Source: Streptomyces canus
Lineage (GTDB): Bacteria > Actinomycetota > Actinomycetes > Streptomycetales > Streptomycetaceae
NCBI RefSeq assembly: GCF_041435015.1
Contig: NZ_CP107989.1
Location: 3,596,001-3,660,000 of the forward strand
Length of the DNA stretch: 64,000 bases
Direction of reading: 5' to 3'
Made by a program: the position numbers and the translations under genes. The notes beneath the pieces were generated by a model that saw only the letters and a program-made list of their open reading frames with translations, was not told where the DNA came from and searched no databases. Position 1 is the stretch's first letter. Each line of letters starts with the position of its first letter. Below, piece by piece: positions 10,608 to 43,127 of this stretch.

Positions 10608-11710
10608 GCGAGGGTCCGGCCGGCCGGAGCAGCCCCAGGGAGCCCTGGGGCGGCGTAAGCCCGTTCTCGATCAAGACCAAGCTGGGCGTCCTGGTCGTCA
10701 TCGCGGTCCTCATCACCACCGGGCTGATGATGATCGCGATGCGCACGGCCACGGAGCTGCGCTTCATCACGGTCTTCTCGATGATCGCCACACTGCTCAT
10801 TACGCAGTTCGTGGCGCATTCGCTCACCGCGCCGCTGGACGACATGAACGCGGTCGCCCGGTCCATCTCGCACGGCGACTACACCCGCCGGGTGCGCGAG
10901 AACCGGCGGGACGAGCTGGGCGACCTGGCCCAGACGATCAACCGCATGGCGGACGACCTGGAGGCCCAGGAACGCCAGCGCAAGGAACTTGTGGCAAATG
11001 TCTCCCATGAGCTGCGCACGCCCATCGCGGGCCTGCGCGCGGTGCTGGAGAACATCGTCGACGGGGTCACCCAGGCCGACCCCGAGACCATGCGCACGGC
11101 CCTGAAGCAGACCGAGCGGCTCGGCCGGCTGGTGGAGACGCTGCTGGACCTGTCCCGGCTCGACAACGGCGTCGTACCGCTGAAGAAGCGCCGTTTCGAG
11201 GTGTGGCCGTATCTGTCGGGCGTGCTGAAGGAGGCCAACATGGTCGCCACGGCGCGCGCGGGCATCGCGTCCGGGTCAGGCAGTCACACCCGCAACGACG
11301 TCCATCTGCACCTCGACGTGTCCCCGCCGGAGCTCACCGCGCACGCCGACCCGGAGCGCATCCACCAGGTCGTCGCCAACCTCATCGACAACGCGGTCAA
11401 GCACAGCCCGGCGCACGGCCGGGTGACGGTCAAGGCGCGGCGCGGGTCCCTGCCGGAGTCGCTCGAGCTGGAGGTGCTCGACGAGGGCCCCGGCATTCCG
11501 CGCTCGGAGTGGCACCGCGTCTTCGAGCGGTTCAACCGCGGCCAGGTCCGGCGGCCGCACGGGCCGGGCAGCGACGGCGGCACCGGACTCGGGCTCGCGA
11601 TCGCCCGCTGGGCGGTGGATCTGCACGGCGGCCGGATCGGAGTGGCCGAATCCGATCGGGGTTGCAGGATCCTTGTCACCCTTCCAGGCCTTCCATCTCT
11701 GCCAAGTTGA
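10604..11710 (+). CDS. Sensor histidine kinase with short extracytoplasmic loop
   Basis: A 368-aa membrane kinase that phosphorylates the overlapping regulator. Transmembrane helices lie at about 27-46 and 53-72 with only some six residues (around RTATEL) between them. HAMP follows (about 72-124), then the dimerisation helix with His135 in VANVSHELRTP, the N-box HQVVANLIDNAVKH, the G1 box DEGPGIP and the G2 box GGTGLGLAIARW. Such a short loop is the hallmark of intramembrane-sensing kinases, which typically respond to envelope stress or to a partner membrane protein rather than to a soluble ligand. Located just upstream of kgd, but separated from it by about 295 bp and a promoter-like sequence. 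Confidence 0.95.
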   Translation: MSEGPAGRSSPREPWGGVSPFSIKTKLGVLVVIAVLITTGLMMIAMRTATELRFITVFSMIATLLITQFVAHSLTAPLDDMNAVARSISHGDYTRRVRENRRDELGDLAQTINRMADDLEAQERQRKELVANVSHELRTPIAGLRAVLENIVDGVTQADPETMRTALKQTERLGRLVETLLDLSRLDNGVVPLKKRRFEVWPYLSGVLKEANMVATARAGIASGSGSHTRNDVHLHLDVSPPELTAHADPERIHQVVANLIDNAVKHSPAHGRVTVKARRGSLPESLELEVLDEGPGIPRSEWHRVFERFNRGQVRRPHGPGSDGGTGLGLAIARWAVDLHGGRIGVAESDRGCRILVTLPGLPSLPS

Positions 11711-38406: not shown

Positions 38407-39012
38407 CTATCGCGCAGGGCGCGGCTCGCGCCACATGGGCCACATCTGAGGTCCGTCCGGCAGGTCGAGCGGCCGCTCCACCAGCTCAAAGCCGAGCCGC
38501 TCGTACAACTCACGACTCCGCGCGCTGCTCGCCTCCAGATAGGCGGGCACCGTCTCCCGGTCGCACCGCTCCAGAACCGCCCCGATGAGCGCGGTCCCGA
38601 GCCCCTCCCCCTGCCGCTCCGGAGCCACCCCGATCATCCACAGATACTCGTGCGCCCGTCCCGACGGATGCACATCCGCAGTGAGCCGCCCGATCAACTC
38701 GATCCGCTCGTTGCCCGGATCGATCGCCTCCCTCAACTGGGCGAACCCGTCCTCCTCGTCATGCCCGTCAGCACTCTCGGCCGGCACCGGCAGCCACAAC
38801 GCGCACGCCGCCCCGTCCTCCGTGACATCGACCCGCCCCTCGGCGAGCACGATGTCGACGAACGCGGCCATCAACCGGGGGTGGAGCGTCCGGCGCTCCT
38901 CCTCCCCCGGAAAGATCCACCCACTGACCGGATCGCCCTGGAAGGCCGCGTCCAGCAGCCGCGCGACCAGCTCGCGGTCATCTGCGCCGGCCGTCCGTAT
39001 CGCCACGCCCAT
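38407..39012 (-). CDS. GNAT-family N-acetyltransferase
   Basis: A 201-aa acetyltransferase starting at the ATG at 39012 with aaggag seven bases upstream. The fold is complete: VAIRTAGADDRELVARLLD, the beta4 strand YLWMIGVAPERQGEGLGTALIGA with the acetyl-CoA loop Q-G-E-G-L-G, and YLEASSARSRELYERLGFE. The F-x-G-D-P-V-S-G-W-I-F-P segment near the start is typical of actinobacterial small-molecule acetyltransferases. Substrate unknown. Lies convergently beside the repeat cluster. Confidence 0.9.
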   Translation of the reverse strand: MGVAIRTAGADDRELVARLLDAAFQGDPVSGWIFPGEEERRTLHPRLMAAFVDIVLAEGRVDVTEDGAACALWLPVPAESADGHDEEDGFAQLREAIDPGNERIELIGRLTADVHPSGRAHEYLWMIGVAPERQGEGLGTALIGAVLERCDRETVPAYLEASSARSRELYERLGFELVERPLDLPDGPQMWPMWREPRPAR

Positions 39013-39180
39013 GCCCCACTCCTTTGTCTCAACCACCTTTGGCCACAAGGATGTTGAGACTATCCGGTGAGCGCGGAAACGGGCCCCGCACACCGTGGGG
39101 ATGTGCGGGACCCGCCGACCGGAGCCCCCGGAGGGCCGCGCGGGGTCAGGAACCGCGCGGTACCGGGCGCTCCGGGGTTC

Positions 39181-40677
39181 TCAGGCGCTGCGCCGCGTCA
39201 CGAACTCCGCGAGGGACAACAGCCCACCCGCCGCTTCCGGATCGGGCACCGCACGGGCCAGCTGCCCCATCGCCCGGGCCATCCGGTCGGCGGCCTGCAC
39301 CTGCGCCCAGTCGCGTCCGCCTGCCTCCTCGACGGCGAGGGCCGTACGCGCCAGATCCCCTTCGTCGTACGGCGCCGAGTACAGCGCGGCCAGTTCCGCG
39401 GCCGCCGCCGTACCGGAGGTGAGGGCGGCGACCACCGGGAGGGACTTCTTGCGGGCGGCGAGGTCCGCGCCGGCCGGCTTGCCGGTGCGGCTCGGGTCGC
39501 CCCATATGCCGATCACGTCGTCGATGAGCTGGAAGGCGAGCCCGGCCTCCCGGCCGAACGCGTCCATCGCCCCGACCTCCTCGCCGGACGCTCCCGCGTA
39601 CAGCGCCCCGAGGGCACAGGCACACCCGAGCAGCGCCCCCGTCTTGGCCTCGGCCATGACCAGGACCTGGTCGAGGGTGACCTCGCCGGGGTCGAGTGCC
39701 TCCATGGCGGTGTCCTCGTGCTGGCCCTCGCACAGCTCGACGACACAGTCCGCGAGCCGGGCCGCGGCCATTCCCGCCGCGGGGTGCGGGTCCTCGGCCA
39801 GCAGCCGGAGCGCCAGCGCCTGGAGGGCGTCCCCGGCGAGGATCGCGTCGGCGTCGCCGAACACCGTCCACGCGGTGGGCCGGTGCCTTCGGGTGGTGTC
39901 GCGGTCCATCACGTCGTCGTGCAGCAACGTGAAGTTGTGGACCAACTCCACCGCCACGGCCGCCCGGACGGCCGCCGCCCTCGCCCGGTCACCTCCGAGG
40001 GCGGTGGCCGCGGTGAGGACGAGTGCGGGCCGTATCGCCTTGCCCGCGTTGCCCGCCGCCGGGGTGCCGTCGGCGTGCTCCCAGCCGAAGTGGTAGAGCG
40101 CGACCCTGCGCAACGAACCGGGCAGCGACTCCAGGGCGGAGCGCAGCTCGGGATCGACCGACGCCCGGACCCGCTCCAGGATCACCCCGGCCTCATGGCC
40201 GTCGAGCGGAGACGTCTCGGACCGCGGGGCAGGGCCATGAAGCGGAGGGTCCTCGGGCCGCGGGGCGGGCACGTGAAGCGGAGTCGTCTCGGGACACGGG
40301 TCAGGGCCGCGAAGCGAAGGCGTCTCGGTCCGCACTTCGGGCCCAGGGAGCGGAGGCAACTCGACCCGCACCTCGGACCCGTGCAGCGGACGCGCCTCGG
40401 ACCGCGGGGCAGGCCCGTGAAGCAGAGGCGTCTCGGCCCGCACCCCGGACCCCTCAAGCAGAGGCGTCTCGACCCGCGCCTCCACCCCCTGAAGCTCACG
40501 CGCCTCGGCCTCCTGGTGCGAACGGGTCTCGTGACCGTCGCGTGGGCCCGTCTCACCTGCCTGTGCCCGCTCCCCGGGCCGTGCGGTGGCCGGCACCGCC
40601 GTCCCCCCGGCCGCCGGCACCCGCACCTCCGCCCTTTGTGATGCCCACGTCTGCGTCCCCGTCGTGAATTCGGCCAT
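39181..40677 (-). CDS. Polyprenyl diphosphate synthase with repetitive N-terminal domain (candidate encapsulin cargo)
   Basis: An isoprenyl diphosphate synthase of about 498 aa; the catalytic part is residues 165-498. First aspartate-rich motif LLHDDVMD (Asp254, Asp255, Asp258), second QLIDDVIGIWGD (Asp386-387), basic GKAIRPALV before the first motif; product is likely C15-C20 but is not certain. The usual enzyme is about 330-360 aa; the extra 165 residues are low-complexity, rich in Pro/Glu/Arg/Gly, with nine 12-residue repeats at 58-165 (consensus E-x-x-x-L-x-G-P-x-x-R-x). It lies 141 bp downstream of an EshA-type shell gene on the same strand. Disordered N-terminal extensions are the known cargo-loading signals of family 2 encapsulins, so this enzyme is probably packaged in that shell. 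ATG at 40677 follows gaggggggtt. Confidence 0.92.
   Translation of the reverse strand: MAEFTTGTQTWASQRAEVRVPAAGGTAVPATARPGERAQAGETGPRDGHETRSHQEAEARELQGVEARVETPLLEGSGVRAETPLLHGPAPRSEARPLHGSEVRVELPPLPGPEVRTETPSLRGPDPCPETTPLHVPAPRPEDPPLHGPAPRSETSPLDGHEAGVILERVRASVDPELRSALESLPGSLRRVALYHFGWEHADGTPAAGNAGKAIRPALVLTAATALGGDRARAAAVRAAVAVELVHNFTLLHDDVMDRDTTRRHRPTAWTVFGDADAILAGDALQALALRLLAEDPHPAAGMAAARLADCVVELCEGQHEDTAMEALDPGEVTLDQVLVMAEAKTGALLGCACALGALYAGASGEEVGAMDAFGREAGLAFQLIDDVIGIWGDPSRTGKPAGADLAARKKSLPVVAALTSGTAAAAELAALYSAPYDEGDLARTALAVEEAGGRDWAQVQAADRMARAMGQLARAVPDPEAAGGLLSLAEFVTRRSA
40183..40506 (-). repeat. Nine in-frame 36-bp units encoding 12-residue repeats
   Basis: Glu residues fall at exact 12-residue steps (58, 70, 82, 94, 106, 118, 130, 142, 154). 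Leu is at position 5 in all nine units, Gly at position 7 in eight, Arg at position 11 in most. DNA units are diverged but keep the 36-bp period, so the period is under selection or recent expansion. Units such as ETPLLHGPAPRS and EDPPLHGPAPRS show the pattern. Confidence 0.93.
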
Positions 40678-40770
40678 GGAACCCCCCTCGGTCAGGCCGC
40701 GGACGGTGGCACTTCCGCTGTGTGCGGGCGCGTTCCACGGGGGTGTCTCCACCTCGGCGTCCGACCGGGG

Positions 40771-40796
40771 TGTACCCGCCCCGGTGGGCGGGGACA
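40771..40796 (-). terminator. Hairpin between shell and cargo genes
   Basis: cccgccc (40775-40781) pairs with gggcggg (40786-40792) across a cggt loop, and the flanking tgt/aca extend it with one mismatch. It may attenuate read-through so that shell and cargo are made in unequal amounts; it has no T-run. Confidence 0.5.
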
Positions 40797-40817
40797 CGCC
40801 TCCCACGTGCAGAAACG

Positions 40818-42224
40818 TCACCTCCAGCGGCCGATCTCGACGTTCTCCAGGACTCCGAGCGCGTCCGGCACCAGCACGGCCGCCGAGTAGTAGGCCGTCA
40901 CGAGGTACTTGATGATGGACTGCTCGTTGATGCCCATGAACCGCACCGACAGACTCGGCTCGATCTCGTCCGGGATACCGGCCTGCTGGAGGCCGATGAC
41001 CCCCTGGTCGGCCTCACCGGTACGCATGGCGATGATCGACGTGGTCCGCTCCGGGGTGACCGGGATCTTGTTGCACGGGTAGATCGGCACCCCGCGCCAG
41101 GTGGGGATGCGGTTGCCCCCCATGTCGATGGTCTCGGGCACCAGTCCGCGCTTGTTGAGCTCGCGGCCGATCGCGGAGATCGCGCGCGGGTGGGCGAGCA
41201 GCAGCTTGGTACCCCGGCGGCGGCTGAGCAGCTCGTCGAGGTCGTCGGGGCTGGGCACGCCGTCGTGCGGTTGGAGCCGCTGGTCGTACTCGCAGTTGTT
41301 CAGCAGCCCGAACTCGCGGTTGTTGACGAGTTCGTGCTCCTGCCGCTCCTTGAGCGCCTCGACGGTCAGCCGGATCTGCTGTTCCGTCTGGTTCATCGGC
41401 TGGTTGTACAGGTCGGCCACCCGCGTGTGGATGCGCAGGACGGTCTGGGCGATGCTCAGCTCGTACTCACGCGGACTCGCGTCGTAGTCGACGAAGGTGT
41501 GCGGGATGTCGGGCTCGCCGTCGTGGCCCGCCGCGAGGTCGATCTCCTTCTCGCCGTACTTGTTGGTGCGCTGCGAGGGGATCGCGCGCTGTTCCCGGAG
41601 GTGCTCGCGCAGGGCGTCGGTGCGCTCCGCCACCTGCTCGACGTCCTGGCGGGGCAGTACGAGGACCGTACAGGCGGTGGCCGCGCGGGCGGTGTACTCC
41701 CAGATGGCGTCCGGGTCGAGGAGCGCCTGGTCGCCGAAGTAGGCGCCGTCGGCGAGGACTCCGAGGACCGCGTCGTCGCCGTAGGGGCCGGTGCCGACCT
41801 TCTCCACCCTGCCGTGCGCCAGCAGGTACACCTCGTCGGCCTGGGCGCCGAACGAGGCGATCACCGAGCCCGGGGTGAACTCCCGCTGCTGGCAGCGTCG
41901 GGCGAGTTCGGAGAGCACGTCGTCGTCCTCGTACGACCTCAGCGCCGGCAGTTCGCGCAACTCGTCGGGGATCACCTCGACCCGGTCCCCGGTCTTCACG
42001 AAGGTCACCCGGCCGTCGCCCACGGCATAGCTCAGCCGTCGGTTCACCCGGTACGTGCCACCCTGGACGTTCACCCAGGGCAGCATGCGCAGAAGCCAGC
42101 GGGAGCTGATCTCCTGCATCTGGGGTGCGGACTTGGTGGTGGTGGCCAGGTTCCGCGCGGCCGCCGTGCCAAGGCTCTGCTGCGGCCGGTCCTGCTCGGT
42201 GCGGACCTCTTCGCCTACCGACAT
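40818..42224 (-). CDS. eshA: EshA-type family 2B encapsulin shell protein with cyclic-nucleotide-binding insert
   Basis: A 468-aa protein of the EshA family, now recognised as HK97-fold encapsulin shells with an inserted cNMP-binding domain. The N-arm and E-loop region ([41 protein letters not shown]) precede the insert at about 95-205: [23 protein letters not shown] and the phosphate cassette YFGDQALL...TARAAT, where Asp replaces the usual Glu and the Arg is kept. The remaining HK97 part follows ([59 protein letters not shown]). EshA is known in Streptomyces for effects on growth and antibiotic production. The ATG at 42224 has ggagg ten bases upstream. A polyprenyl synthase follows downstream. 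Confidence 0.93.
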
Positions 42225-42536
42225 AAGGAATTGCCCTCCCGGTACATGCCCGGACGCGATCTGCTCCCGGGCATCGTGTGCAGGGACAAGCCTTCCTTAC
42301 GGAACGTGGCGGTGCTATTACACGAAAGAGCGGGAATGGATCATCGCGAGGCTGGGCATATGCGCGGTTCATGTCCGCTGACGACAGGTCAAGTCCACTT
42401 CCTGGAACGGAATTTGTCTGTCCGAATCAGCTCGCACGCTGTACGAACCAGGAGTCGGAGACCGCCGTTTTCGGTACAAGCACCGGTACGAGCCGGGCGC
42501 GGTCGGCGGCCGGTGCGCAGTGCGAAGGAGGGGGCC
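42225..42536. other. 312-bp divergent promoter region between eshA and the amidase
   Basis: No gene is seen. The sequence is less GC-rich than its neighbours around 42300-42340 and 42400-42480, as expected for promoters firing both ways, but no convincing paired -35/-10 boxes or operator palindromes could be assigned by eye. Confidence 0.5.
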
Positions 42537-43127
42537 ATGGCCTCACCCATGTCCGCGGACAGATTCCTGGCCGTCCTACGGGCGGAGGGCGCCACCGTCG
42601 TCGAGGTCGGCGACTGGGAGCACCACAACCGCAACCACGTCGGCGCCTGGGGTCCGGTGCACGGCGTGATGATCCATCACACGGTGACGAAGGGCAGCGC
42701 GGCGACGGTGGAGCTGTGCCGCAAGGGCTACACGGGCCTGCCCGGCCCGCTCTGCCACGGTGTCATCACCAAGGACGGCACCGTCCATCTCGTCGGCTAC
42801 GGCCGCGCCAACCACGCCGGTCTGGGCGACGACGACGTCCTGCGCGCGGTGATCGCGGAGAGGGCGCTCCCCGTCGACAACGAGGCCAACACCGACGGCA
42901 ACCGCCACTTCTACGGCTTCGAGTGCGAGAACCTCGGCGACGGCGAGGACCCCTGGCCCGCGGCCCAGCTGACGGCGATCGAGCGGGTCTCCGCCGCGGT
43001 GTGCCGCCACCACGGCTGGACGGAACGGTCGGTCATCGGTCACTTGGAGTGGCAGCCGGGAAAGGTGGACCCGCGGGGCTTCACGATGGCCTCGATGCGG
43101 GCGCGCATCCGGGAGCGCCTCACGTGA
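42537..43127 (+). CDS. N-acetylmuramoyl-L-alanine amidase (Amidase_2/PGRP fold)
   Basis: A 196-aa zinc amidase that cuts the bond between MurNAc and L-Ala in peptidoglycan. The zinc ligands appear as the His in GVMIHHTVTKG, the His in GYGRANHAGLG region, and the late His in SVIGHLEWQPGKVDPRGF, with the W-Q-P-G-K-x-D-P end typical of T7-lysozyme-like enzymes. No signal peptide is visible, as in phage endolysins and some cytoplasmic recyclers. ATG at 42537 follows gaaggaggggg. Confidence 0.92.
   Translation: MASPMSADRFLAVLRAEGATVVEVGDWEHHNRNHVGAWGPVHGVMIHHTVTKGSAATVELCRKGYTGLPGPLCHGVITKDGTVHLVGYGRANHAGLGDDDVLRAVIAERALPVDNEANTDGNRHFYGFECENLGDGEDPWPAAQLTAIERVSAAVCRHHGWTERSVIGHLEWQPGKVDPRGFTMASMRARIRERLT

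Follow-up and report, generated by a model that had tools for sequence, protein, structure and literature searches.

A clade-specific repeat array in the N-terminal tail of a polyprenyl diphosphate synthase encoded beside a family 2B encapsulin of Streptomyces canus

The pairing of family 2B encapsulin shells with polyprenyl diphosphate synthases is already published: the synthase gene has been described as the most frequent neighbour of 2b shells (PMC8049743), and the available text of a 2021 survey counts 900 polyprenyl transferase 2B operons, the enzymes of which have disordered N-termini of 50-100 residues with no conserved targeting motif (PMC8346489). How 2B shells capture prenyl synthases, for which that text describes no targeting motif, is the question raised by a locus of Streptomyces canus in which the linked synthase carries an unusually long, repeat-bearing N-terminal tail. 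The locus lies in a 64,000-nucleotide stretch of DNA (NZ_CP107989.1, positions 3,596,001 to 3,660,000; hereafter the window) of a 10.68 Mb genome, and the relatives with which it is compared are Streptomyces. The original prediction, made from the letters of the window, held that the enzyme is encapsulated, that its repeats form the cargo-loading domain, and that a cyclic nucleotide-binding (cNMP) domain gates or tunes the shell. N-terminal cargo loading has been published for family 2A (PMC8346489); a literature search that covered a minority of subscription journals found no report of polyprenyl transferase cargo loading into 2B shells and no paper on repeats in encapsulin cargo.

The assignment of the shell gene (Table 1) to family 2B with a cNMP-type insert is well supported. 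The protein scores 770 bits against the 2B model NF041163 (cut-off 400) and 354 bits against the 2A model NF041162, which is under the 380 cut-off of the latter, and it contains a PF19307 (SrpI-like) match of 448 bits at residues 216-466, with the PF00027 match ahead of it. Solved shells can be aligned over nearly its full length, namely PDB 9bhu to residues 6-467 (E 2e-198), 9bix to residues 9-465, and 9bje to residues 11-465. By homology to these solved 2B shells, the window shell would have an HK97 fold, and a position of the insert in the E-loop can be provisionally carried over from the same relatives; a structure prediction of the shell, made from an alignment whose members were 82-98% identical to its first sequence, reached a pLDDT of 51 and was unusable. 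The earlier designation of the shell as EshA-type was right as to family 2B, but the name appears to belong to the paralogue. We take SCO5250 of S. coelicolor to be a prenyl synthase and SCO7700/7701 to be 2-MIB genes, and by this synteny the window shell is presumably the EshB-type paralogue and a likely orthologue of EshB, with the second shell of the genome (L002) being the EshA type. In the published naming, SCO5249 of S. coelicolor is eshB and its paralogue SCO7699 is eshA (PMC3878966, in its available part). On the other strand, antisense to the shell gene, positions 41686-42194 (+) match the Rfam family Sernc350, an antisense RNA of Saccharopolyspora, with 147.7 bits; conserved coding sequence alone may account for this match.

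Table 1. Positions of the principal features of the locus, numbered from the first letter of the window
Feature	Position	Strand	Basis
GNAT-family acetyltransferase, downstream of synthase	38407..39093	-	comparison of relatives
Polyprenyl diphosphate synthase of cargo type (498 aa, ATG at 40677)	39181..40677	-	Pfam, NCBIfam, model
Repeat array, 12 residues (36 bases), nine diverged units, consensus approximately ETPPLHGPAPRS; last unit is the junction	40186..40506	-	
Junction motif PLDGHEA (residues 157-163), where catalytic helix 1 starts	40189..40209	-	comparison of loci, model
N-terminal peptide MAEFTTGTQT (in relatives M[AG]EFMTET[KQ]Q)	40648..40677	-	comparison of relatives
Ribosome-binding site GAGGGGGG before the ATG	40682..40689	-	sequence, relatives
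Hairpin GTGTCCCCGCCC-ACCG-GGGCGGGTACAC, 20 bases past the shell stop codon	40770..40797	-	comparison of loci
Family 2B encapsulin shell, 468 aa, HK97 domain with cNMP-binding-like insert	40818..42224	-	Pfam, NCBIfam, homology to solved shells
cNMP-binding-like domain, shell residues 114-201	41622..41885	-	PF00027, 65.8 bits

Within the insert, W175 and E176 are without variation across 32 aligned shells, and in an alignment made by eye with a segment of CRP they fall at the phosphate-binding Arg-Ser site of that protein, Trp175 corresponding to Arg82. The insert of a related 2B shell is reported, on the strength of earlier work cited in the available text of PMC12407261, to bind no cyclic nucleotide, and the inserts are described there as lying over the two-fold pores, with another ligand or the pore position itself suggested as the basis of their role. 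Gating or tuning of the shell by cyclic nucleotides is thus doubtful, and gating by another ligand may be envisaged.

The gene adjoining that of the shell encodes a polyprenyl-type synthase (PF00348, polyprenyl_synt, 190 bits) that exceeds the cut-off of NF041169, the NCBI model for family 2 polyprenyl transferase cargo (484 bits, cut-off 450), and both its position and this score agree with its prediction as cargo. Its reading frame could begin at the ATG at 40677 or at an alternative GTG at 40821. The ATG is favoured by the ribosome-binding site in front of it and by the M-A-E-F start common to relatives; furthermore, the distance between shell stop and enzyme start occurs in all three frames (25, 21, and 8 of 54 loci, window included), so that the 48 codons upstream of the ATG are probably noncoding and the GTG is judged to be unlikely. 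In a predicted model, the catalytic domain is a confident isoprenoid synthase fold (TM 0.93 with 3nf2, by target length). The geranylgeranyl diphosphate synthase equivalog NF045549 was not passed (358 bits, cut-off 475). An aromatic residue five positions ahead of the first aspartate in the first Asp-rich motif is the mark of a C20 product, and the enzyme has such a residue, as does 1wy0; its sequence suggests a short-chain, GGPP-like (C20) product. The window contains no terpene cyclase, as had been noticed originally, with zero matches to PF19086; the nearest match (C1:3666796) lies 6.8 kb outside the window, at a distance of approximately 30 kb from the enzyme gene. Two more pairs of prenyl synthase and terpene synthase genes, both without a shell, are found elsewhere in the genome (G000:C1 2171173-2173059 and 1728093-1732257).

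Among 296 genomes of the window's class there are 37 matches above the NF041169 cut-off, and a shell is present upstream in 33 of them, the window's own locus included, with none in the fetched flank of the remaining four (L118, L128, L130, and L131). A further 99 matches were listed below the cut-off; 35 of these were examined (33 fetched loci and two paralogues from the window's own genome), and neither these nor a third paralogue of that genome were shell-linked in the fetched flank. A closer comparison comprised the best 80 of 523 named Streptomyces loci, 81 with the window, and in 78 of the 80 a same-strand shell gene immediately precedes the synthase, and the contigs of the remaining two break off at that point.

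Counted from the ATG, the N-terminal extension of the window enzyme is 164 residues, one short of the 165 low-complexity residues first described, and its predicted disorder is borne out by pLDDT values below 50 at residues 1-124 and 126-157, only residue 125 escaping before residue 158. The repeats themselves are real. They span residues 58-164 as eight units of 12 residues and a final one of 11, and lag-12 identity amounts to 46 of 95 positions, whereas 5000 shuffles reach no more than 26 at any lag from 1 to 29; TRF likewise detects a 36-base period in the DNA of the array. Between the units of the window pN/pS is 1.44; in this genome they drift and show no purifying selection, whereas within-array values of 0.67-0.74 in L011, L013, and L014 make some constraint on the units possible there; all of these ratios are simple counts from units and loci that are not independent. 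The reading frame is open throughout the array in all five loci of the canus group. A genome-wide minisatellite was considered and ruled out, as the search of the genome for a second array of this kind returned only one 43-base DNA look-alike and weak protein matches (best E 0.03).

The extent to which the tail varies among relatives could be determined for the 54 of 81 loci, window included, that have a confident start under a rule scoring likeness to M-x-E-F-M-T-E-T, the ribosome-binding site, and the ATG; the other 27 stand outside the tail counts. Tails in the 54 loci range from 17 to 219 residues with a median of 42, and four have at least 160. The twelve shortest, of 17-28 residues, adjoin shells that are 88-93% identical to that of the window, and locus L024 has a tail of 35 residues without the 12-residue array beside a shell that is 98% identical. 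The enzymes of the window, L011, and L012 are 98% identical in their catalytic parts and have tails of 164, 196, and 104 residues, respectively. With the long-tail state set at 90 residues or more (eight rows) and the 27 loci lacking a confident start treated as not long, among them L046 with a tail of maybe 270 residues, four changes of state are needed on the enzyme tree, three of which are forced by well-supported branches, and the sisters around the window clade have tails of 24, 35, and 58 residues. The array is therefore recent and arose inside one clade, the other long tails being separate; on this comparison of sequences, it represents an insertion specific to this lineage, flanked by an N-terminal peptide and a junction that are both conserved. 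Other long tails, of low complexity or made of repeats of other unit types, were seen in L046, L056, L067, and L076, the starts of the first three being uncertain. Of the 32 linked enzymes that the wider set contains beyond the window, 10 could accommodate no more than 23 residues in the stretch from the shell stop to the catalytic domain, on the assumption that enzyme starts do not lie within the shell gene, and in two of these (L107 and L120) the start codon overlaps the shell stop. A long disordered tail is thus not general for shell-linked enzymes.

Two elements bound the array. In the N-terminal peptide, 53 of the 54 loci have E3 and 48 have T6, counts that are inflated because the start rule scored likeness to this peptide. 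Conservation of the junction is independent of that rule, and among the best 80 of 523 loci plus the window the A is present in 81 of 81, the E in 78, and the G in 69. Across loci, pN/pS, again from simple counts on loci that are not independent, falls from 0.70 in the N-terminal peptide to 0.48 in the junction and 0.36 at the start of the catalytic domain, the first value being no lower than those within the arrays of L011, L013, and L014. Inner copies of P[x][DH]G number 29 where shuffles average 5.5 (0 of 1000 as high), and 11 where they average 3.7 once the canus group is left aside (2 of 1000 as high), an excess which suggests that arrays were seeded from the junction unit. In the wider set, counted without L110 as a near copy of L012, a strict junction pattern is matched by 15 of 21 closer linked enzymes, by 0 of 10 distant linked ones, and by 0 of 40 without a detected same-strand shell. 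The junction was rejected as a universal tag, given its absence from all ten distant linked enzymes and its alteration in six of the 21 closer ones. It is nonetheless a candidate loading element, with a distribution that is confounded by descent and by its position at helix 1, and, as judged from the predicted model, it may be purely structural as the start of that helix. The published terpene-cyclase tag GPTGLGT was also considered; neither the window tail nor any tail region among the 81 loci contains a GP-x-GLG pattern, and no tag common to close and distant shell-linked enzymes was found.

Beyond the two proteins, the operon has a conserved intergenic hairpin. In 48 loci (window included, 47 distinct), selected for a confidently placed start and a gap of 80-160 bases, 93.4% of the cells of its helix are paired; for the whole named structure, which includes a second, weaker helix, the figure is 91.3%, compared with 36-60% when the partners are slid. 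The covariation score of the named structure lies above 500 of 500 shuffles. Two-sided changes are limited to 2 of the 11 pairs of the main helix, with a structure-wide count that is unexceptional (52 of 500 shuffles as high), and RNAalifold alone paired only five hairpin columns with covariation nearly nil. Under a looser scan, 59 of 106 regions contain the hairpin; the close set, window included, contributes 55 of its 79 regions and the wider set 4 of its 27. Allowing up to one mismatch, its degenerate form was found nowhere else in the genome; Rfam has no family for it at E up to 1, and a sigma-70 promoter scan of 38800-42600 returned none. The hairpin probably lowers expression of the cargo relative to the shell, or stabilizes the shell message, and its conservation points to a possible mechanism for setting the levels of shell and cargo. 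Of the 74 relatives with enough flank (from the best 80 of 523), 57 likewise have a same-strand GNAT homologue downstream of the synthase, making this gene a possible operon member.

As a whole, the locus is best explained, with fair probability, as an ordinary Streptomyces 2B operon in which loading occurs via short elements and the repeats are an inserted spacer. Its one shell protein would be expected to form a T=1 shell of approximately 28 nm, like a solved relative, and this shell would confine a prenyl-diphosphate supply step, the predicted cargo being a short-chain, probably geranylgeranyl, diphosphate synthase. Loading would most likely proceed via the N-terminal peptide, the junction [DE]G[HQ]EA, or the enzyme surface, with the repeats not being used. 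The nine-unit repeat would be a lineage-specific expansion between both elements that apparently began with a duplicated junction unit, and would serve as a disordered, fast-evolving spacer that at most alters the distance of the enzyme from the shell wall. The limiting case of this explanation, in which the array is a neutral minisatellite without any role, tolerated in a tail predicted to be disordered, is somewhat unlikely: the drift of the window units without selection and the different repeat types of other lineages are what it would lead one to expect, whereas the open frame in all five canus-group loci, the recurrent enrichment of junction-like units, and the lower pN/pS in L011, L013, and L014 argue against it.

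That the synthase is a non-encapsulated operon partner outside a shell that holds another protein or none would accommodate the four over-cut-off enzymes of 37 without a shell in the fetched flank and the lack of a tag common to close and distant linked enzymes, and the frequently following GNAT gene would provide another candidate cargo; it is nevertheless unlikely in view of the shell adjacency in 78 of 80 relatives (best 80 of 523) and of the way in which the NF041169 cut-off divides linked from unlinked enzymes among the matches examined. A little less likely again is the originally proposed reading, in which the repeat-bearing region is the cargo-loading domain and every repeat a shell-binding unit. 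It draws on the N-terminal loading of family 2A and on the disordered polyprenyl transferase N-termini of 50-100 residues described in the portion of PMC8346489 available, as well as on the resemblance of the repeats to the junction unit, copies of which exceed shuffles in other lineages too. The region is, however, absent from shell-linked relatives that have tails of only about 12-35 residues, the array turns over between enzymes with 98% identical catalytic parts, and its units drift in the window with a pN/pS above 1. Improbable as well, and the least probable reading of those weighed here, is a multivalent loading tag in which repeated copying of a shell-binding junction unit, P-L-[DH]-G-x-E-A, raises avidity or forms a dense disordered phase in the shell; were it true, copy number would tune the prenyl synthase content of each shell. 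The relatives provide a natural series in which shells 88-99% identical to that of the window stand beside tails of 17-219 residues bounded by two short end elements, and this makes the loading question simple to test experimentally.

Known systems place these features in context. The genome itself contains a second 2B system (L002/L091; L091 10042-13447, minus strand), the shell of which is 59% identical to that of the window and has a methyltransferase and a partial match to a terpene synthase (11112-11531) as its neighbours, with no prenyl synthase; the system is apparently of the 2-methylisoborneol type. The cyclase frame of L091 looks disturbed, with low GC3 in overlapping frames. EshB and EshA of S. 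coelicolor (SCO5249 and SCO7699) belong to the same protein family as the window shell (PMC3878966, in its available part). By the diagnostic motifs given in the available text of PMC12407261, 9bix is Enc2 and 9bje is Enc1 of the two-component 2B shell of S. lydicus, to which the window shell is homologous over its residues 9-465, and motif 1 of the window shell, RRRG, is closer to that of the self-assembling Enc2 (RRRK) (PMC12407261). Unlike S. lydicus, the window has a single shell gene, the only other shell match in the genome being distant, and the cargo class differs. With the polyprenyl transferase systems of the 2021 survey, as far as its available text describes them, the locus shares the cNMP-like insert in the shell, the linked synthase, and the disordered N-terminus (PMC8346489). 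It departs from that description in having a tail of 164 residues with a 12-residue array, the Streptomyces set departs from it in having a conserved junction and N-terminal peptide, and the tails of some linked enzymes have only 12-20 residues. The tail is an unusual local elaboration of a known kind of system.
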